From positions 1 through 64,000 of the forward strand of contig CADAAI010000018.1 in NCBI GenBank assembly GCA_902785925.1: a stretch of 64,000 nucleotides of DNA, read 5' to 3'. Source of the DNA: an uncultured Bacteroidales bacterium. Lineage in GTDB: Bacteria > Bacteroidota > Bacteroidia > Bacteroidales > Muribaculaceae. Of the stretch, positions 32,144-41,498 are shown in pieces. The notes under the pieces were generated by a model. It saw only the letters and a list, made by a program, of their open reading frames with translations, was not told the origin of the DNA and ran no database searches. Made by a program: the position numbers and the translations under genes. Positions within the stretch are counted from its first letter, which is position 1. Each line of letters opens with the position of its first letter.

Positions 32144-32318
32144 GCCAAACCCAAGCAATTAGCATTACTACAAAAAAGCTACTTAAACACTACAAAAATT
32201 TTCACACCCTAATTTTTATCACTACATTAAAAAAATTATATCACTGATTATCAATAGAAGATAATTTAAAAAAACACTACACACATCTATGTCATCATAA
32301 CACGAAACACACAAGTGA

Positions 32319-32350
32319 TTTGCATTTTAAAGAAATGTATTGTATTTTTG
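32319..32350 (+). promoter_or_regulatory. Promoter of the DUF47/PiT-LuxR/porin operon
   Basis: TTTG (32319-32322), 20 bp, TATTTTTG (32343-32350), about 28 bp before the ATG at 32378. It is the only full promoter before the next three genes. Confidence 0.65.
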
Positions 32351-32377: not shown

Positions 32378-33025
32378 ATGTTTGGACTCAAGAAGACAAA
32401 TAAGACCATAAGCGACCTAGATAGTTTTTTAGATTATCTTGACGAATGCGTGCTGATATACAAGAGCGGCATCAAGAATTATCTTGAGGGCAACAAGAAG
32501 GACTTCGACGACAACCTAGAGAGCATCACGAGGTTGCGCGACACTACCACCGACCTGCGCCGCACTATAGAGAACGAGCTTTACACCTACTCACTTGTTA
32601 CCGACCAGCGCGTCGAGATAATGCAGTTGCTTGAGCGCCTTGACATGATTATCACCCTGCTCCACAAAAACTTGTGGCAGTATGAAATAGAGATACCATT
32701 CTTCCCGTCGGAGATTAACGTCGATTTTCTCAAACTCGTAGAAGTCACTGGCCTTGCCGTTGAGGGTACCATTCAGGCTTCACGCGATTACTTCAAAGCC
32801 CCACGCTTTGTAAACGAGAAGACCCACCGCATATACTTCTTTGAGAAAGAGGTGAGCAAACTCGCACAATCGATCAAGCGACGCGTGTTTCACGAGATGG
32901 ACAACTTCAAGCTCAGCCAGAAGTTCCACTTGCGCTATTTCACCCTCCACGTCGAGGAACTTGCCGAGGAATCGGTACGCGTTGCCGACCACCTCTCCAT
33001 CATGGTCATAAAACATAACAACTAA
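32378..33025 (+). CDS. DUF47 (PhoU-like) protein
   Basis: 215 residues from the ATG at 32378. The sequence is an all-helical DUF47/TIGR00153 protein: MFGLKKTNKTISDLDSFLDYLDECV at the start, then DFDDNLESITRLRDTTTDLRRTIENELY, which carries the family's D/E-rich metal-binding positions, and ends AEESVRVADHLSIMVIKH. DUF47 proteins normally stand next to PiT phosphate transporters and control them. Here the next gene (24 bp on) encodes a PiT-like protein fused to a DNA-binding domain, so the partner relation seems to have been kept while the transporter changed role. Confidence 0.85.
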   Translation: MFGLKKTNKTISDLDSFLDYLDECVLIYKSGIKNYLEGNKKDFDDNLESITRLRDTTTDLRRTIENELYTYSLVTDQRVEIMQLLERLDMIITLLHKNLWQYEIEIPFFPSEINVDFLKLVEVTGLAVEGTIQASRDYFKAPRFVNEKTHRIYFFEKEVSKLAQSIKRRVFHEMDNFKLSQKFHLRYFTLHVEELAEESVRVADHLSIMVIKHNN

Positions 33026-33048: not shown

Positions 33049-34623
33049 ATGGAATTCACTGTGTCGATATTGCTTATCCTGATGATTGGAGCGTGGCTTG
33101 GATACCGAGAAATTGGCGTCAGTTTCTTGGGTATCCACATCCGCGACCTGATATCGACACGAATCATTGGAATCATGCAGTTTGTGGTTGTCGCGGTCTT
33201 GTGCCTAGGCATCCTCTTCCTTAACGATGAGACATCGTCGAAGGTCAACAATCTTGACATCAATGAGGCATATATAATAATGTGTGGCATAGTAATATCT
33301 GTCGCCATCATTAGAAGTGCCGACCAATACACATCGGCAGTGACCGCCTTTTGGGGTGCACTAGCTGCCATTGTCTACAATAACCAGTGGTTCAACGACT
33401 ACCCACTGACAGCAGCTTTGCTGTCGCTAATAGCGGCTCCAGTGTTGGGACTGCTATTTTTCTTACTCTTCGACCGCCTATTTGACCATTACATTTTAAA
33501 GACCGACAAGCACTTGCTACTAAAGAACCTGCTCATGAAGCGACTAGCGCTTGTAGGAATAATTTTGGGCGGCTTGACTCTCTCACTTAATTTTGCGCTC
33601 TTTTCCTCTCCATTTCTCTCGTCGTTCTTGACCCAGATTGATGTCACATGGCTGCCATTCCTGTTCATGTTCATGGGTGTTCTGAGTTTAGCTGTCACAA
33701 TCCCTATGATAGTAGTGCTTCGCCACGAGAACTCAATGGCAAAACCAATGAGTTGGGCATTGCCATCGCTCTATGCCCTCATCACGGTGTTACTGCTTGG
33801 CAATATTGCCGGTACCCTGCTACTTGGCATGGTTCCCGTGATAGTATCGCCAAGCCAGTTGCGTGAGTGCAGTAAGATGACAAAAGGTGCACGCCAGCGC
33901 AGCCTGATCAACCTGGCAAGCATTACCATTGCCACACCCCTACTCGCATTCCTGCTAGTGATGGCAATGATGAGAATCATTAACAGTCCTCTCCTGGTAT
34001 TAGTGGTCACAAGCTTTGTGCTTATCACTTGCCTATTAATAACAATGTACTCTAAGCAATGGCGCAAGCACAACATCACAAAGAAAGCTCTTGACGACGA
34101 ACTCACCCACAACACCGAGGCTGGTGACGAGCGCAACCGCTTGGATGTCGCAGCAGTGACTTCACAATTCAACGTGATGACTAACGAAATCGACATCAAG
34201 CACAATGAGTTGGTAAACCTTTCATTATATATCAAGCAGCAGCGACAATACCTCGAAGACTTGAGCAAGAGACTCAACGACTTATCGAACGAAGAAGATG
34301 TTGCCACGCTGCGCCAAGAATTGCGCGACACTGCGCATAAACTCAACGAGAACATGCGACTCACAGGTGAAATGGACCACTTCTACACACAAGTAGAGGG
34401 CTTACACAAGAACTTCGTGAGTCGCCTGCTCATGCGTTGCCCCAACCTGTCGGAGAAAGAGAAGCGCCTTGCCATCATGCTTCGCCTAGGCTTCTCGAGC
34501 AAAGACATATCAAGCATGCTCAACGTCGAACCCAAGAGCGTGGAGGTGAGTCGCTACCGCTTCCGCCGCAAGCTCAAGCTCGACCGCAGCACCAACATAG
34601 TGGAATATCTGCAAATGATATAA
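33049..34623 (+). CDS. Polytopic PiT-like membrane protein with LuxR-type DNA-binding domain
   Basis: 524 residues. Residues 1-345 contain about ten membrane helices whose order and motifs (FWGALAAIVYNN, APVLGLLFFLLFDRLF, LASITIATPLLAFLLV) resemble PiT phosphate transporters, but the PiT signature GxNDxAN is absent. Residues about 350-450 are charged and helical and look like a coiled coil (LSLYIKQQRQYLEDLSKRL). The last 60 residues are a LuxR/GerE helix-turn-helix (LSEKEKRLAIMLRLGFSSKDI, MLNVEPKSVEVSRYRFRRKL). Bacteroidetes regulators of this HTH type usually carry TPR repeats in front; here a transporter-like domain takes their place. A membrane-bound phosphate sensor is the simplest reading. 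It overlaps no gene and is followed by an OprP-type porin. Confidence 0.75.
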   Translation: MEFTVSILLILMIGAWLGYREIGVSFLGIHIRDLISTRIIGIMQFVVVAVLCLGILFLNDETSSKVNNLDINEAYIIMCGIVISVAIIRSADQYTSAVTAFWGALAAIVYNNQWFNDYPLTAALLSLIAAPVLGLLFFLLFDRLFDHYILKTDKHLLLKNLLMKRLALVGIILGGLTLSLNFALFSSPFLSSFLTQIDVTWLPFLFMFMGVLSLAVTIPMIVVLRHENSMAKPMSWALPSLYALITVLLLGNIAGTLLLGMVPVIVSPSQLRECSKMTKGARQRSLINLASITIATPLLAFLLVMAMMRIINSPLLVLVVTSFVLITCLLITMYSKQWRKHNITKKALDDELTHNTEAGDERNRLDVAAVTSQFNVMTNEIDIKHNELVNLSLYIKQQRQYLEDLSKRLNDLSNEEDVATLRQELRDTAHKLNENMRLTGEMDHFYTQVEGLHKNFVSRLLMRCPNLSEKEKRLAIMLRLGFSSKDISSMLNVEPKSVEVSRYRFRRKLKLDRSTNIVEYLQMI

Positions 34624-34664
34624 TTCATTAAATACCTTTATTTATTAACTAAATGTTTTTTACA

Positions 34665-36032
34665 ATGAAAAAATTATTAACTCTATCCTTTGTGCTAGCA
34701 CTCTCCGCTTGGGGCAGTGTGTGGGCACAAGAATCGGACGAGACCGCCGTTTACAACCAGTACGGCGTGAAAGTCGATCGTGAAGAGCTGATCTCGGAGC
34801 AGCGTAACAACATCCTCACGTTTGAGTCGAAGAACAAGGAGTATCGCCTGTGGTTTGACAACCGCGTACAAGTTGATGGGGCCATGTTCTTTGGAAAGAA
34901 CAGCGAGGACTTCGACAAGATTGGCAACAACGCCTCTATTCGTCGTGCTCGTTTTGCCATCAAGGCCCGCCTTCCACACAACTGGTATGGCGAGGTTGAC
35001 GTAGACTTTGCCGATGGCAAGTTTGAGCTCAAAGACGCTATTGTGCAATTCGACGGCATCAAGAACGTTTCGATTAAGGCTGGAAACTTCAAGGAGGACT
35101 TCTCGATGGAGCAGACCACCTCGTCGCGCTACCTTACCTTCATGGAGCGCCCAATGGTTTGTAAGGCTCTTGTTCCTTCGCGTCACATTGGACTTCAGGT
35201 TTCTTACCTGCTCAACCACTTCCGTGCCACTGGTGGTGTGTTCTTCCAGACTATAGCTGGTGAGGAAGAACTTACCAACGTTCAGGACAACAACAAGGAC
35301 TATGGCCGCAATCAGGGCTACTCGTTCACCGGTAAAGTTGGCTGGATGCCCTATGCCAAGGACCGCAGCTGGGGTCTTTACCTGGGTGGTAAGGCTTCAT
35401 ACCGCACTCCAAAAACTGAGGATGCTCCTGGTGACTGGGGCGGAATGCGTTTCAGCACCCGCAACGCTACCAGCATCAACCGCAAGAAATATCTTGACAC
35501 CGATGTAATTAAAGACGTTGACCACAACGTGCTCTATGGTCTCGAGGGAGCAGCCTACTATGGTCCCGCACGCATCCAAACCGAGTGGATTCAAACCAAT
35601 GTAGATGCCGCTAAAGACAACTACAAATTCAATGGCTGGTATGTTCACGCATCTTGCTTGCTCTTTGGCGGTAAGCAGCGCTTCAATACCGCCGAGGGCG
35701 AGTTTACTCAGCCACAGCGCGGCCGCAAGTGGGGCGACATCGAGCTCGCACTTCGTTATGATTACCTTAACCTCAACGACAAAGACGTTTACGGCGGTGC
35801 CGGTGAGAACTTCACCGTTGGTTTGAACTACTGGATTAACAACAGCGTTAAGATTGTTCTCAACTATCAGTACTCTAACAACGACCGCTATGCCAATGGC
35901 AAGGGCAAGCTCATTGTTGGTCACGACATCAAAGGAAACCCAACCACAGACTACACCAAGGTTACTGAGGCCAAAGGCAAAGGCGGCATCAGCTATCACA
36001 TGCTGGGTCTTCGCTTAGAGGTTAACTTCTAA
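34665..36032 (+). CDS. OprO/OprP-type phosphate-selective porin
   Basis: 455 residues from the ATG at 34665. The signal peptide ends at WGSVWAQ. A 16-strand porin of the OprO/P family follows: YRLWFDNRVQVDGAMFF, SIRRARFAIKARLPHNWYGEVDVDFADGKFELKDA (the family hallmark), MERPMVCKALVPSRHIG, LALRYDYLNL and a C-terminal Phe (LRLEVNF). Pseudomonas OprP is specific for phosphate and OprO for polyphosphate. In Bacteroidetes the substrate is less sure, but its place after a DUF47 and a PiT-like gene supports phosphate or polyphosphate. It lies 41 bp after the PiT-LuxR gene. Confidence 0.85.
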   Translation: MKKLLTLSFVLALSAWGSVWAQESDETAVYNQYGVKVDREELISEQRNNILTFESKNKEYRLWFDNRVQVDGAMFFGKNSEDFDKIGNNASIRRARFAIKARLPHNWYGEVDVDFADGKFELKDAIVQFDGIKNVSIKAGNFKEDFSMEQTTSSRYLTFMERPMVCKALVPSRHIGLQVSYLLNHFRATGGVFFQTIAGEEELTNVQDNNKDYGRNQGYSFTGKVGWMPYAKDRSWGLYLGGKASYRTPKTEDAPGDWGGMRFSTRNATSINRKKYLDTDVIKDVDHNVLYGLEGAAYYGPARIQTEWIQTNVDAAKDNYKFNGWYVHASCLLFGGKQRFNTAEGEFTQPQRGRKWGDIELALRYDYLNLNDKDVYGGAGENFTVGLNYWINNSVKIVLNYQYSNNDRYANGKGKLIVGHDIKGNPTTDYTKVTEAKGKGGISYHMLGLRLEVNF

Positions 36033-36066
36033 TTATATGTTTAACTCTTTAAATGACACAAAGACA

Positions 36067-36930
36067 ATGAAAACTATAAAATTAGCATTCGCGCTCATTA
36101 TCGCAACACTCGCGATGACAGCATGCGTTGAAGATAAAGTATATGAGGGTCCTAACACCATCGAGAGTGTGATATTAGCCCCTGAGGCCCCTACTTCAGC
36201 CGATGACGTTTTGGTGACAGCTAAGGTATCGGGCTTGTTGGCAGTTGAGAAGGCCGTTCTGAGTTACAGTGTGGATGGCGACCTCGTGGATGAGATTCAA
36301 ATGGCTGGCAACAACGACATCTACACTGCTACCATTCCAGCTATGGCTGACGGCACTAAAGTTGATGTAAAAGTTACCGTCACCAACGAGGCTGGTTATA
36401 CCTCTATTGCAGAGAGAAGCTATGTGGTATATGATATTCCAAATCCATATAAGCAGCTAGTTCTCAACGAACTGTTTGGTGCCGCTGATACCGACGACGG
36501 CAAATACATCGAACTTTACAACAATGGTGACGAAGACCTTGACCTCAATGGAGTAGTCATTATGAAAGATGAGTCCGAATCTTGGGCTGGCGAAGAAGGC
36601 GAAGTAATCAAGGCTCATAGTTACTTTAACATTGTAGGCGCCAAGGGCATGCTTGGCGAAGGCGGCAGTGGTCCTAATCCACGTCCACTAAGCAGTGGTT
36701 TCTCGTCTAAGAAGAGTGTACTCATTGAGCTTTATGACCCTAGCGGTAACCTCGTTGACAAGTTCCAGCGAGGCGAAAAAGGCGGTGAATGGGGTGCTCA
36801 GAGCCTTACAAACAACAAGAAGACCTGGAGCCGCTGCCCCAATGGCACTGGCAAGTTCATGATCGCCGACAAGACCTTGGGCGCTCAGAACCCCGATACC
36901 GGCGAGGAAGATGAAACTGTAGTACAGTAA
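36067..36930 (+). CDS. Lamin tail domain lipoprotein
   Basis: 287 residues from the ATG at 36067. The lipobox is LAMTAC. A beta-sandwich-like domain (about 30-125, Ig-like, with VTVTNEAGYTSIAERSY) is followed by a lamin tail domain (LTD) from about 135: LVLNELFGAADTDDGKYIELYN, then DLNGVVIMKD, HSYFNIVG and WSRCPNGTGKF. LTDs occur on secreted nucleases, phosphatases and adhesins and probably bind partners. It ends the operon with the porin, so it may sit with it in the outer membrane. Confidence 0.8.
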   Translation: MKTIKLAFALIIATLAMTACVEDKVYEGPNTIESVILAPEAPTSADDVLVTAKVSGLLAVEKAVLSYSVDGDLVDEIQMAGNNDIYTATIPAMADGTKVDVKVTVTNEAGYTSIAERSYVVYDIPNPYKQLVLNELFGAADTDDGKYIELYNNGDEDLDLNGVVIMKDESESWAGEEGEVIKAHSYFNIVGAKGMLGEGGSGPNPRPLSSGFSSKKSVLIELYDPSGNLVDKFQRGEKGGEWGAQSLTNNKKTWSRCPNGTGKFMIADKTLGAQNPDTGEEDETVVQ

Positions 36931-37053: not shown

Positions 37054-37698
37054 ATGGCAAAAGAAGAATTAAAGATTGGTGAAATATCAAAACCAAGGTT
37101 TGAGTTCCGCAGCTTCGGTCGTTGCTTCTGCGAGGCAGGAAAGCGCATGGCCCGCTTGAGTGCACCAGTTCCCGAGAAAGTGTGGGAGCGTCACAGCACC
37201 GAGACCTACATCGTGAGCCGCACCAACGACGTGAACAACACCAAGATACGCGACGGCAAGATGGACATCAAGACCTTCGTACAAGAAGTTGACGGCCTCG
37301 AGCAGTGGAATCCCTTGATGAAGGGTGAGTTCCCCATCAGCGCACAGGTTCTCAAGGACGAGGTATTCCCTGCCTTCAAGGTAGAGGGCATGCCCGAGCT
37401 TACTAAGGAGACTTACACTCTTGAGGAGTTCCTTCAGATGATTGACGAGCACCCCGACCTTCAGGCTGTCAAGGTTGAAAAAGCCCGCTATGGCTATATG
37501 GTTAACGACACCATTTGCGAGACTGGCGAGGTTTATATCAACGGAGCTATGGTTCGCACCATCAACAGTGAGAGCACTGAGATTGAGGATATCAAGAAGA
37601 CCATCGCCGACGTAGGCCTTGAGGGTGTTGAAAACATCAACTACCTGCAAGCTATCAAGCGTGTGATTGGTATGATTAACAAACCCTTAGCAAACTAG
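37054..37698 (+). CDS. Probable divergent CYTH-like (triphosphate tunnel) protein
   Basis: 214 residues with no family I can name for certain. The layout looks like a CYTH-type tunnel: an N-terminal strand with Arg/Phe (KPRFEFRSFGR), alternating charged residues in a strand (TETYIVSRTNDVNNTKIRDGKMDIKTF), an acidic pair, a helical insertion at about 108-140, then VEKARYGYMVNDTICETGEVYIN like the second half of CYTH enzymes. It is 6 bp before a clear CYTH gene, which supports the reading. Alternatives are an unrelated beta-rich protein. The start is the only ATG with this spacing. Confidence 0.5.
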   Translation: MAKEELKIGEISKPRFEFRSFGRCFCEAGKRMARLSAPVPEKVWERHSTETYIVSRTNDVNNTKIRDGKMDIKTFVQEVDGLEQWNPLMKGEFPISAQVLKDEVFPAFKVEGMPELTKETYTLEEFLQMIDEHPDLQAVKVEKARYGYMVNDTICETGEVYINGAMVRTINSESTEIEDIKKTIADVGLEGVENINYLQAIKRVIGMINKPLAN

Positions 37699-37704
37699 AC
37701 GATT

Positions 37705-38175
37705 ATGGCACAAGAGATAGAAAGAAAATTCCTTGTTAAGGGAGAATTCAAAGACGAGGCATTCAAGGCCACACGCATCACACAGGGCTACCTGAGCTCA
37801 GTGCCTGAGCGCACAGTGCGCGTTCGCGTGAAAGGCGAGAAAGGTTTCATCACAGTCAAGGGCATTGGCAACGAGAGTGGTGCTAGCCGCTTCGAGTGGG
37901 AGAAAGAGATTCCTGCCGAGGAGGTTATGGAGCTTCTCAAGATTTGCGAGCCTGGTGTTATCGACAAGACCCGCTATCTGGTGAAAGCCGGCGAGCGCAC
38001 CTTTGAGGTCGACGAATTCTACGGCGACAACGAGGGTCTAACCGTTGCCGAGGTGGAGCTTCCCAGCGAGGATGCCGCATTCGACCGTCCCGCCTGGCTT
38101 GGCGAGGAGGTAACCGGCGACCCCAAGTACTACAACTCCATGCTCATGAAGAACCCTTACAAGAACTGGAAATAA
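37705..38175 (+). CDS. CYTH domain triphosphatase (YgiF/NeuTTM type)
   Basis: 156 residues. It starts with the family signature EIERKFLV (residues 4-11) and keeps the pairs of basic and acidic residues that line the triphosphate tunnel: RTVRVRVKGEKGFITVKG, EWEKEIP, KTRYLV, FEVDEFYG and VAEVELPSED. Single-domain bacterial CYTH proteins of this size mostly hydrolyse tripolyphosphate, less often make cAMP or thiamine triphosphate products. It lies after the CYTH-like gene by 6 bp. A hairpin follows before the SLC13 gene. Confidence 0.9.
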   Translation: MAQEIERKFLVKGEFKDEAFKATRITQGYLSSVPERTVRVRVKGEKGFITVKGIGNESGASRFEWEKEIPAEEVMELLKICEPGVIDKTRYLVKAGERTFEVDEFYGDNEGLTVAEVELPSEDAAFDRPAWLGEEVTGDPKYYNSMLMKNPYKNWK

Positions 38176-38284: not shown

Positions 38285-40006
38285 ATGGCGGAAGCAATAA
38301 CCAAACAAGAGGCGACATTTGATCCTCTGGACATGAACAACTACAAGCTCGAAAAGCTGCCCAAGATGCAGAAGTCGGGCTTTGAAAAGATATTACAACG
38401 CATAGGCGGCCCACTGGCAATCCTCGTCTTTGTGTTCTTCTACTGGTTTGCCGATATCTCATTCATCAACAATATCGACACCAACAAGGAGACCACCACC
38501 CTAGCCGAGGGAGCCATGAAACGCTATGATGAGATGTACAAGAAGGGCGAGAAGAAACTCGCCGTGGTGGTCGATGCCAGCGGCAAGGAGACCAAACACG
38601 ACCTTAGCGATGCCGAGCAGGCACAACTCAAGGCCGATACCCACAATCACTTCTTGCGCATCAACTATGCGATGCTGGCAATATTTGTCGCCGCCATCAT
38701 CCTGTGGATTACCGAGGCAATCCCCAATTACCTCACCTCGCTGATAGTAATACTAATGATTGTACTTACTGGGGTCACGAGCGACAAAGAGGCCTACGCC
38801 CAGCTCGGTCATCCAGTAATGTGGCTCAACATCCTGTCGTTCATCTTGGCGAGCATGCTTGTCAAGACCCAAGTGGCAAAGCGATTTGCCATCTGGTTTG
38901 TGCTCAAGTTTGGCAAAAGCGCCAGCGGCATCATCCTGAGCTTCATTGTCATCAATATCGTGCTCTCGGCGTTTATCTCGGCCACCACTGCTAAGGCCGC
39001 AATACTACTTCCAATCTTTATGGTTGTAGCCGCCATTTATGGGGCATCGCAAGGAAAACGCAACAACTTTGGCCGCAACCTCGTGTTGCAGAACCTATTC
39101 CAAATTAACCTGGGTGCCAACTCATTCCTCACAGGTTCGGGAGCTACCCTGCTGGCAGGATCGCTCATAGCAGGTGCTCTAGGCATTGGTGCCTTCAGTT
39201 ATCAGGACTGGTTTAAGTGCGCCTTCCCAATGAACCTGATACTTATCCTTATCGGCTGGTTTGTGGGCTCAAAGATTTACTTCCGCCTCAAGAAAGGCGA
39301 AGATAAGCCACAAATTGAAGGCGGACTAGACCGCCTGCGTGACGAGCTGCACAAGCTAGGCAAGATGAGTTCTCAGGAATACAAGGCCATCGCCATTTTC
39401 CTCGTTGTGCTCATCCTGTGGGCCACCGACAAGCAGCATGGCATCAACCAGACTGCCGTGGCATTCATGGGAGCTGTGGTAGCCCTACTGCCCAAGATTG
39501 GCATCGTGAAGTGGAACGATGTCGACATTCCCTGGCACCTATTACTCTTCTCGGCTGGTGCCTACACTCTAGGTGCCGGTCTTGAGGCTACTGGCCTGCC
39601 TGGCACTATGATCAACGCCCTCTTTGGAGCACTTGGCATCAGTGCCAGCACACCGTTCTGGGTAATCTACCTCATCCTCACGGCGAGCATCCTGCTGTTC
39701 TCTCTTATCTTTGAGTCGAAGACAATGCTCACTCTCATCTTTGTACCTATCGCCATTGGCGTGGCACAGAGCAATGGCTACCCCATCATGAGCCTTGCAT
39801 TCCCAGTGGCACTGCTTGTGGGACATGTCTACGTGCTGCCCTTCAACAGCAAGCCTGCCGCACTACTCTATACCACCAACCAGTATAGCATTAGCGACAC
39901 CTTCAAGTTTGGTATCACCATGATGTTCATCAGCTGGCTGATGGTAATCCTGTGGGGCGACACCGTGCTGCGCTGGTTTGGTTACACCAATGGAGTTTTC
40001 TTTTAA
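38285..40006 (+). CDS. SLC13/DASS family anion transporter
   Basis: 573 residues. A soluble start of about 45 residues leads to about 12 membrane helices. After the first helix there is an unusual charged loop of about 70 residues (TTLAEGAMKRYDEMYKKGEKK). Family motifs include WITEAIPNYLTSLIVILMIVLTGV, LVKTQVAKRFA, NLGANSFLTGSGATLLAGS, FSAGAYTLGAGLEATGLPGTM and LPFNSKPAALLYTTNQY. SLC13 proteins move dicarboxylates, sulfate or phosphate by sodium symport; the motif that tells them apart is not clear. The neighbours (CYTH pair, OprP porin) make phosphate or polyphosphate-linked anions the best guess. Confidence 0.85.
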   Translation: MAEAITKQEATFDPLDMNNYKLEKLPKMQKSGFEKILQRIGGPLAILVFVFFYWFADISFINNIDTNKETTTLAEGAMKRYDEMYKKGEKKLAVVVDASGKETKHDLSDAEQAQLKADTHNHFLRINYAMLAIFVAAIILWITEAIPNYLTSLIVILMIVLTGVTSDKEAYAQLGHPVMWLNILSFILASMLVKTQVAKRFAIWFVLKFGKSASGIILSFIVINIVLSAFISATTAKAAILLPIFMVVAAIYGASQGKRNNFGRNLVLQNLFQINLGANSFLTGSGATLLAGSLIAGALGIGAFSYQDWFKCAFPMNLILILIGWFVGSKIYFRLKKGEDKPQIEGGLDRLRDELHKLGKMSSQEYKAIAIFLVVLILWATDKQHGINQTAVAFMGAVVALLPKIGIVKWNDVDIPWHLLLFSAGAYTLGAGLEATGLPGTMINALFGALGISASTPFWVIYLILTASILLFSLIFESKTMLTLIFVPIAIGVAQSNGYPIMSLAFPVALLVGHVYVLPFNSKPAALLYTTNQYSISDTFKFGITMMFISWLMVILWGDTVLRWFGYTNGVFF

Positions 40007-40049
40007 GTTTTAAGTGCCAACTAACCTCTTAAGAGCAACGAATAACGAG

Positions 40050-41498
40050 ATGATAAGCATCAAGCCAAAAATTCATGACAGCAACACGCTGGAGTTTAAG
40101 GTGGGCTTCGTTCCTAACGACGGCGCCACCTATAACGACTTTTACATGAACACCTGGATTTTCATTCCTGAGGTGCTTGATGTGAATCGCCACACCTATA
40201 GCAAAGACACATTCTACAACGACACCATCTCCTACCTAAGGCTCATCACGCCACGCTATGAGCTGCGCGAGCTCACCGATCAACACTCACTGCCGTTCAC
40301 ACGGTTGCAGCAAGCATGCGAAAACCCCGTGAACGACAACAAGGAGTTTGAGACCGAGGTCAAAATGTATGCATCAATCGTGAAGAGCAGCATGCGCGAA
40401 GCTTACAACAAAATCGTGAAAGAAGCCAACGAGGAGACACAGCGCAGCCTCGCCTGCGACCTTGTGGAGCAATCCAAAGAAGTGACGTCGATGTACCGCT
40501 CGCTGCGTCCCACCCTGCTCAAGAGCGATGCCGGCAAGCAGATGGCGGTATTCTTCGACTTTGGCGACGAGTTCATCTCCAACATCGTGGAGCAGCACTT
40601 GGGCCGCATCGTCAAGCTCCTTAATCCGCGCCAAAACAATAACGGAAGTCCGTTGCTTCCTATGATCACCCAGCTACTCGACAGCGAACACAAGTACCGC
40701 AAGAGCCGTCAATATCTTGACGTGGAGTCGAAGAGCAGCGACGACAACCGCCAGTTTGTCTACCACGCCAGCCTTCTCAAGAAGTACATAGAGAGCAACC
40801 TCTATCTTCCTACCCACAAACGCCGCAACACTGCCTTCCTTGAGCAAGTGGCATTCAGTGTGGCTGCAGGCATCTCGATGGTCTTCGCCACTGTGGTGTC
40901 GTTTGCTTTCCAGCAGACCTACGGTAACTTCACCCTACCGTTCTTCATCGCCCTTGTAATAAGCTACATGTTTAAGGACCGAATCAAAGACTTGATACGC
41001 AACTACTTTGCCCATGGCCTGGGCAGCCGTTTCTATGACTACCTCATCACCATCAGGGTGGGTGGACACAAGATTGGAAAGGTGAAGGAAGGATTCGACT
41101 TCGTATCGCCTCAAGACGTGTCGCGCCACGTAAACGAGAAGCGTGCCCGCAAGAACCCACTTGTAGTAAACCGTGGCGTCGACGAGCAAGTGATTCAGTA
41201 CCGCAAGTATGTGCACCTGCGCCGCAAGGCTGTCGACCGACTATCGGCCTATCCCATCAACGGCATCAACAACATCGTGCGTTACAACCTTGCCGAATTC
41301 ATGCGCAAGATGGACAACCCCAAGGTGCCACTCTATGTGAACCAAGGCGACGCTGCCCTCAACTTTACTAGCGGGGACAAAGCCTACTACCTTAACTTTA
41401 TCATACAGTGTAAGTATGAAGGAATTAGTGAATACAAACGATACCGCGTGTGCCTGTGCCGCGACGGAATAAAAGATATTGAGGAAAAACACCAATGA
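40050..41498 (+). CDS. Conserved protein with two membrane helices, unknown
   Basis: 482 residues from the ATG at 40050; a start at 40014 is possible but has no better context. It is mostly soluble and charged, with helical stretches (MREAYNKIVKEANEETQRSLACDLVEQS) in the first 270 residues. A pair of membrane helices follows (VAFSVAAGISMVFATVVSFAF and LPFFIALVISYMF, about 273-320), then about 165 residues rich in basic residues. No family is recognised. The gene overlaps the following lipoprotein gene by 4 bp, so the two are co-translated, and it is in the SLC13 operon. Confidence 0.6.
   Translation: MISIKPKIHDSNTLEFKVGFVPNDGATYNDFYMNTWIFIPEVLDVNRHTYSKDTFYNDTISYLRLITPRYELRELTDQHSLPFTRLQQACENPVNDNKEFETEVKMYASIVKSSMREAYNKIVKEANEETQRSLACDLVEQSKEVTSMYRSLRPTLLKSDAGKQMAVFFDFGDEFISNIVEQHLGRIVKLLNPRQNNNGSPLLPMITQLLDSEHKYRKSRQYLDVESKSSDDNRQFVYHASLLKKYIESNLYLPTHKRRNTAFLEQVAFSVAAGISMVFATVVSFAFQQTYGNFTLPFFIALVISYMFKDRIKDLIRNYFAHGLGSRFYDYLITIRVGGHKIGKVKEGFDFVSPQDVSRHVNEKRARKNPLVVNRGVDEQVIQYRKYVHLRRKAVDRLSAYPINGINNIVRYNLAEFMRKMDNPKVPLYVNQGDAALNFTSGDKAYYLNFIIQCKYEGISEYKRYRVCLCRDGIKDIEEKHQ

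Follow-up and report, generated by a model that had tools for sequence, protein, structure and literature searches.

LuxR-type regulators that are themselves integrated in the membrane have been described in Eggerthella lenta, where proteins with 12 transmembrane (TM) helices are proven membrane-spanning activators (PMC9734109). They are the nearest precedent in form for the protein considered here, in which a membrane domain related to PiT transporters is fused to a LuxR-type helix-turn-helix (HTH). A second line of comparison comes from phosphate signalling: in S. aureus the DUF47 protein PitR acts on this process together with its cognate PiT transporter, and a survey of 926 genomes found PhoP or PhoR to be absent from many of them, including some Bacteroidota (PMC13170248). 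PiT-HTH proteins bear on the question of how phosphate is sensed by bacteria that have no classical two-component system for it. With respect to DNA binding, MalT-type activators pair a LuxR-type HTH with short, asymmetric sites that recur several times as direct repeats, MalT itself being a soluble protein with an ATPase and a TPR sensor.

We analyzed a stretch of 64,000 nucleotides from an uncultured bacterium of the Muribaculaceae (Bacteroidales), referred to below as the window. The original prediction had read one of its ORFs as a PiT-like membrane domain followed by a coiled-coil linker and a LuxR-type HTH, located between a DUF47 gene and a porin gene. The genes of this region and the domains of the fusion protein are:

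32378–33025, + strand: DUF47/PhoU_div (PitR-like) protein, PF01865; the alignment places the conserved start at ATG 32378, the listed ORF begins at 32315
33049–34623, + strand: fusion protein of 524 aa, the ORF being present as originally predicted
33049–33987, + strand: degenerate PiT core, aa 1–313 (hhalign profiles, AlphaFold2 model, VIA-align)
33988–34068, + strand: extra TM helix beyond the PiT core, aa 314–340 (the alignment with 6L85 stops at about aa 315)
34069–34428, + strand: long, helical, coiled-coil-like linker, aa 341–460 (full-length model)
34429–34620, + strand: LuxR/GerE HTH, aa 461–524 (Pfam)
34653–36032, + strand: porin O/P family outer-membrane protein (Porin_O_P match), with an orthologue at the same position in other families
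36037–36930, + strand: lamin-tail-domain (LTD) protein, probably a lipoprotein (sequence comparison)
37054–37698, + strand: conserved protein of 214 aa without a Pfam match (cluster comparison)
37705–38175, + strand: CYTH-domain protein (cluster comparison)
38285–40006, + strand: SLC13-type (Na_sulph_symp) permease in the conserved cluster (cluster comparison)
40014–41498, + strand: membrane protein of 494 aa; several relatives have a protein of similar appearance (about 487 aa) after SLC13, as judged by eye

The predicted layout of the fusion ORF was borne out by Pfam, hhalign and the AlphaFold model. The GerE HTH covers aa 466–519 of the 524-aa protein with 28.6 bits, above the Pfam cut-off of 23.5, and the modelled membrane region comprises about ten membrane helices plus hairpins, succeeded by the coil and the C-terminal HTH. 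In the full-length model one helix spans residues 314–413 (pLDDT 85), i.e. the added membrane helix continues into the long coil with the HTH after it. The core of PiT proteins ends outside; if the core of the window protein terminates in the same way, one added helix is needed to bring the HTH into the cytoplasm. The membrane-bound regulator proposed from the first reading is probable. Its two neighbors were also recovered: the DUF47 gene ends 23 bp upstream of the fusion ORF and matches PF01865 with 31.4 bits, above the cut-off of 24.4 (against NCBIfam TIGR00153 it reaches 27 of 104 bits, below the cut-off), and the Porin_O_P gene (E 8e-44) starts 29 bp downstream.

Compared with PiT/SLC20 transporters (PF01384, 6L85), the window protein shares the fold of aa 1–313, the two half-repeats and the place after a DUF47 gene, and it differs by its eroded motifs, the extra TM helix, the coiled coil, the C-terminal HTH and the lack of a Pfam match. 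The pairing of DUF47 (PitR) with PitA in S. aureus and other bacteria resembles the locus in that DUF47 lies beside a PiT gene and is tied to phosphate signalling; however, the output there is the two-component system PhoPR (PMC13170248), whereas the PiT protein of the window bears its own DNA-binding domain. With DadR, CadR and HcdR of E. lenta and the Coriobacteriia it has in common a one-component architecture of a many-helix membrane domain and a C-terminal LuxR HTH; these regulators control a neighboring operon (PMC9734109), and such control is proposed for the window regulator. They belong to another phylum, and their TM domain is described without reference to PiT (PMC9734109). Differences on the side of the window family are its intact-transporter relatives, an adjoining DUF47 gene and helically phased putative sites. 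The PiT-HTH protein fits among the membrane-integrated one-component LuxR regulators. MalT-type activators are alike in their LuxR-type HTH and direct repeats, but the window protein is membrane-bound and its CNCTACA sites are putative.

Within the Bacteroidota, membrane regulators of the Reg_prop/Y_Y_Y or TPR type carry a linker and HTH homologous to those of the window protein (E down to 1e-24); they sense through a propeller/Y_Y_Y or TPR domain, whereas the window protein has a transporter-derived membrane part in that place. It had been suggested that the transporter-like part replaces TPR repeats, behind which this HTH normally sits. The linker-HTH module does occur behind TPRs, but it occurs behind Reg_prop/Y_Y_Y domains as well, and in most relatives within the order the same HTH is joined to an intact PiT, which argues against a simple swap in this lineage.

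The PiT ancestry of the membrane domain was not evident from direct searches. Neither the whole window protein nor aa 1–345 alone matched PF01384 (PHO4) above the curated Pfam cut-off, and when the window protein was searched against Pfam, NCBIfam and PDB sequences, the HTH alone was detected; for a weak NCBIfam match named BT3442 the literature gave only a structure paper on a MACPF protein. Direct hhalign comparison of the window genus alone with PiT was weak (prob 8–60%), and intermediate groups were required. Using membrane parts only, the window genus aligned with Prevotella at 3e-62 and with the degenerate group at 4e-22, and the degenerate group aligned with canonical PiT-HTH proteins at 2e-30 (E-values per single comparison, versus 0.26–0.48 for reversed profiles and 0.13–0.33 for the unrelated membrane family SLC13). 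All steps of this chain to canonical PiT align nearly end to end. Furthermore, an AlphaFold2 model of aa 1–345 was built from 30 sequences of the window genus and Prevotella with zero PiT rows (pLDDT 87, pTM 0.87). While Foldseek on its own found no significant match for the modelled membrane part, the top VIA-align match was chain A of 6L85, the solved sodium-dependent phosphate transporter of Thermotoga, a PiT protein (PDB 6L85), with Z 21.8 and rmsd 4.0 over 293 residues; the runner-up reached Z 6.3. Structure comparison of aa 1–345 therefore recovers the PiT fold that had been predicted, and a profile search with the membrane part alone gave a divided answer, negative with Pfam and positive through the profile-profile chain. 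By profile and model, residues 1–313 are confirmed as a diverged PiT (SLC20/PF01384) domain, and we count both its ancestry and its predicted fold as established.

The window protein is one member of a larger group. Orthologues of the DUF47 gene were detected in 43 of 393 genomes of the order, in 30 genera. In most cases the gene that follows encodes a canonical PiT (motifs GANDAAN, PVSTSQ, GANNIAN and PVSSTQ) that continues into a coil and HTH of the same type, 550–624 aa in all, and this gene mostly precedes the same porin and LTD gene; other DUF47 orthologues in the order adjoin a PiT alone without HTH. All 21 canonical fused proteins from named genomes match PF01384 and 19 of the 21 match GerE, each being a single ORF. 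Degenerate forms were found in Odoribacteraceae, Rikenellaceae, Alistipes, Tidjanibacter, Prevotella and Muribaculaceae, and 11 of 22 degenerate relatives still match PF01384 at E≤0.01. These sequences make up a widespread and apparently undescribed PiT-HTH family, and the window lineage (rumen Muribaculaceae, together with relatives of the Prevotella and Rikenellaceae type) is its branch with eroded transport motifs; a search of open-access literature found no description of a PiT-HTH protein. We infer that an intact PiT is the ancestral state, the family being left unrooted as long branches in the protein tree make rooting unreliable. As a whole, the family probably comprises proteins that are both transporter and regulator.

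Three otherwise canonical PiT-HTH proteins have a partly eroded first motif (GTNDTLN in L156, GSKDTVN in L159, GAQGASN in L161) and are possible intermediates on the way to transport loss. At L162 (3951–5489, genome G056) a 513-aa TM-HTH protein lies in the DUF47-porin position and has a membrane part without recognizable PiT motifs, which represents either extreme decay or a swapped sensor.

We also looked at the genes beyond the fusion. The arrangement DUF47, PiT-HTH, porin and LTD recurs across many genera of the order as well as among named genomes, followed by the genes for the 214-aa protein, CYTH and SLC13, and this cluster is kept whether the PiT part is canonical or degenerate. In both kinds of lineage the SLC13 permease and the 494-aa membrane protein seem to be part of it. 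Abundant gut and rumen bacteria carry the cluster. We considered whether SLC13 was recruited to stand in for the lost PiT transporter and rejected this, since SLC13 also lies behind canonical PiT-HTH operons. The 214-aa protein encoded between LTD and CYTH is 72–99% identical over most Bacteroidales loci examined, and its core KIRDGKMDIK appears CYTH-like by eye.

In the window protein, GYREIGV and SLNFALF stand where the GxNDxAN-type signature motifs of the two halves would be expected. The absence of the PiT motif, noted in the original prediction, extends to both halves; in the window lineage little is left of either GxNDxAN-type motif or of the PVST/PVSS loops. Across 51 degenerate proteins most other PiT motif residues have been lost as well, with three exceptions: Ser96 is present in all 51, Asn181 in 50 of them, and position 21 is acidic in 48. 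The median dN/dS is about 0.17 for the membrane part and 0.055 for the HTH, with dS near saturation. By this estimate the membrane part is subject to strong purifying selection, and together with two polar residues that hardly vary within this hydrophobic domain, Ser96 and Asn181, this suggests a retained site. The transport function has presumably been lost in the window protein, although some residual transport is conceivable.

Alignment of the regions upstream of DUF47 in the window genus revealed a repeated CACTACA. Together with the promoter, the sites are located in the window as follows:

32188–32194, + strand: putative operator site 1, CACTACA, a conserved same-strand direct repeat 5’ of the DUF47 gene
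32220–32226, + strand: putative operator site 2, CACTACA, 32 bp past site 1, a same-strand repeat in the upstream alignment
32275–32281, + strand: putative operator site 3, CACTACA, 55 bp past site 2, a same-strand repeat in the upstream alignment
32319–32350, + strand: Bacteroidota-type promoter with TTTG at 32319–32322 and TATTTTTG at 32343–32350, read from the sequence and conserved in the genus

The promoter consensus of Bacteroidota is TTTG/TAnnTTTG. In a k-mer enrichment C(A/T)CTACA leads in all four groups, the start of the coding sequence aside. Counted across the upstream regions together, CNCTACA (searched with N = A, C or T) is found 166 times in forward and 2 times in reverse orientation. 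Where sites are less than 60 bp apart, the distances group around 11, 22, 32, 43 and 55 bp, and 64 of 71 deviate by no more than 1.5 bp from a multiple of 10.8; with spacing in multiples of about 11 bp, neighboring sites share one face of the helix. The repeats track with the presence of the HTH across operons: strict CWCTACA occurs in 19 of 25 HTH operons (it is missing from six) versus 0 of 11 HTH-less DUF47-PiT operons (Fisher p 2e-5), an association in which lineage could be a confounder, as the motif was discovered in the same promoters, among related genomes, and operons of other families served as the HTH-less controls. We infer that the HTH binds the CNCTACA repeats as its operator. 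Their position upstream of the promoter would suit an activator.

A search of the window’s own genome for paired CWCTACA sites showed no enrichment (8 matches versus 10 for the reversed control), so that a wider regulon is unsupported. The promoters of the CYTH and SLC13 genes had been put forward for DNA-binding tests of the HTH; these genes do belong to the conserved cluster, yet not even a single operator site was found near either of them. Simple autoregulation is therefore the best reading.

Taken together, we consider it likely that the window protein is a membrane-integrated one-component regulator descended from a PiT transporter, with an oxyanion-binding core, that controls its own operon. 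The PiT core with Ser96, Asn181 and acidic residue 21 would act as an oxyanion receptor whose ligand is most likely inorganic phosphate, as the direct reading of phosphate in the original prediction implied, and the PitR-like DUF47 protein may join the core in sensing. Occupancy of the core would be passed through the added TM helix and the coiled coil to the cytoplasmic LuxR-type HTH. Bound to same-strand CNCTACA repeats on one DNA face 5’ of the DUF47 promoter, the HTH would control its own operon, most likely as an activator; this operon would comprise DUF47, the regulator, the porin and the LTD lipoprotein, and probably also the 214-aa protein, CYTH and SLC13. Canonical members could relay transport or occupancy directly to the promoter, while in the window lineage the core has probably turned into a receptor. 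More generally, we regard it as an evenly balanced proposition that Bacteroidales possess a family of single chains in which a working PiT transporter and a LuxR HTH report uptake directly to the promoter of their own gene, no two-component system being involved, and that the transporter half has decayed to a pure receptor in host-associated lineages (Muribaculaceae, Prevotella, Rikenellaceae). A transporter bearing its own transcription factor would, if true, make the signalling path very short, and one could trace through living species how a sensor evolved from a transporter. The series from intact to eroded PiT on the same HTH, along with the putative operator, makes such a conversion directly testable, and the putative binding site and the three-residue candidate ligand site can be tested immediately.

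It is unlikely, but deserves consideration, that a regulator of the same type responds to sulfate or another oxyanion instead of phosphate. According to NCBIfam models the PiT superfamily also includes sulfate permeases, the cluster contains an SLC13 permease, i.e. a member of the Na:sulfate symporter family, and the canonical PiT domain weakly matches the Bacteroidota CysP-type sulfate permease model NF053884. This match, however, amounts to 85 bits against a cut-off of 400, and NF053884 was not among the NCBIfam matches of the window protein. The canonical subfamily had no PitA match at the threshold used; its members align to the phosphate transporter 6L85 at E 1e-30 and have GAND-type motifs. 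In addition, DUF47 is a partner in phosphate signalling in S. aureus (PMC13170248), and reading the neighborhood by eye we saw no sulfate-assimilation genes beside the cluster.

A phosphate receptor that has ceased to transport can further be set against a single-chain transceptor with altered motifs that still transports and whose HTH activity is governed by flux instead of simple binding. Many relatives retain all four PiT motif regions intact, and both the purifying selection on the membrane part and the three retained residues would be compatible with such a protein. We nevertheless hold it to be improbable, given the erosion of motifs and loops in the window lineage and the presence of other phosphate uptake systems: no PF01384 protein was found in the window’s own genome, which holds two Na/Pi cotransporters and one PstS-like protein. 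Equally improbable is a membrane part that merely anchors or dimerizes the HTH and senses no solute, the signal coming from DUF47 or another partner. It would account for the much faster divergence of the membrane part within the window genus (mean pairwise identity 55%, versus 80% for the linker and 87% for the HTH) and for the absence of PiT motifs at the same operon position in L162, but it sits poorly with a dN/dS of 0.17 and near-invariant Ser96 and Asn181 in a hydrophobic domain.

Finally, although the majority of sequences are metagenome-assembled, there is next to no chance that annotation or assembly joined a transporter gene to a regulator gene, an error the original prediction had itself considered, because the same full-length fusion recurs in 18 of 397 Muribaculaceae genomes, all from one genus, and in 72 named assemblies, including that of a cultured Prevotella (Prevotella aff. 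ruminicola Tc2-24, L206, NZ_FOIQ01000001.1). The genus is that of the window and consists of rumen Muribaculaceae MAGs (labels L182–L200). The 72 assemblies, in which the complete TM-HTH fusion lies directly 3’ of DUF47, were counted among 80 loci found when named genomes were scanned using the DUF47 alignment, these being the best 80 of 359 relatives; the same porin is nearly always next wherever the contig extends that far. None of the 61 genomes searched for both combines the fusion with a long PiT, a different protein of about 750 aa with a helical C-terminal part that is present in four members of the genus from which the fusion is absent (G022, G028, G033 and G034, at L050, L052, L054 and L055).
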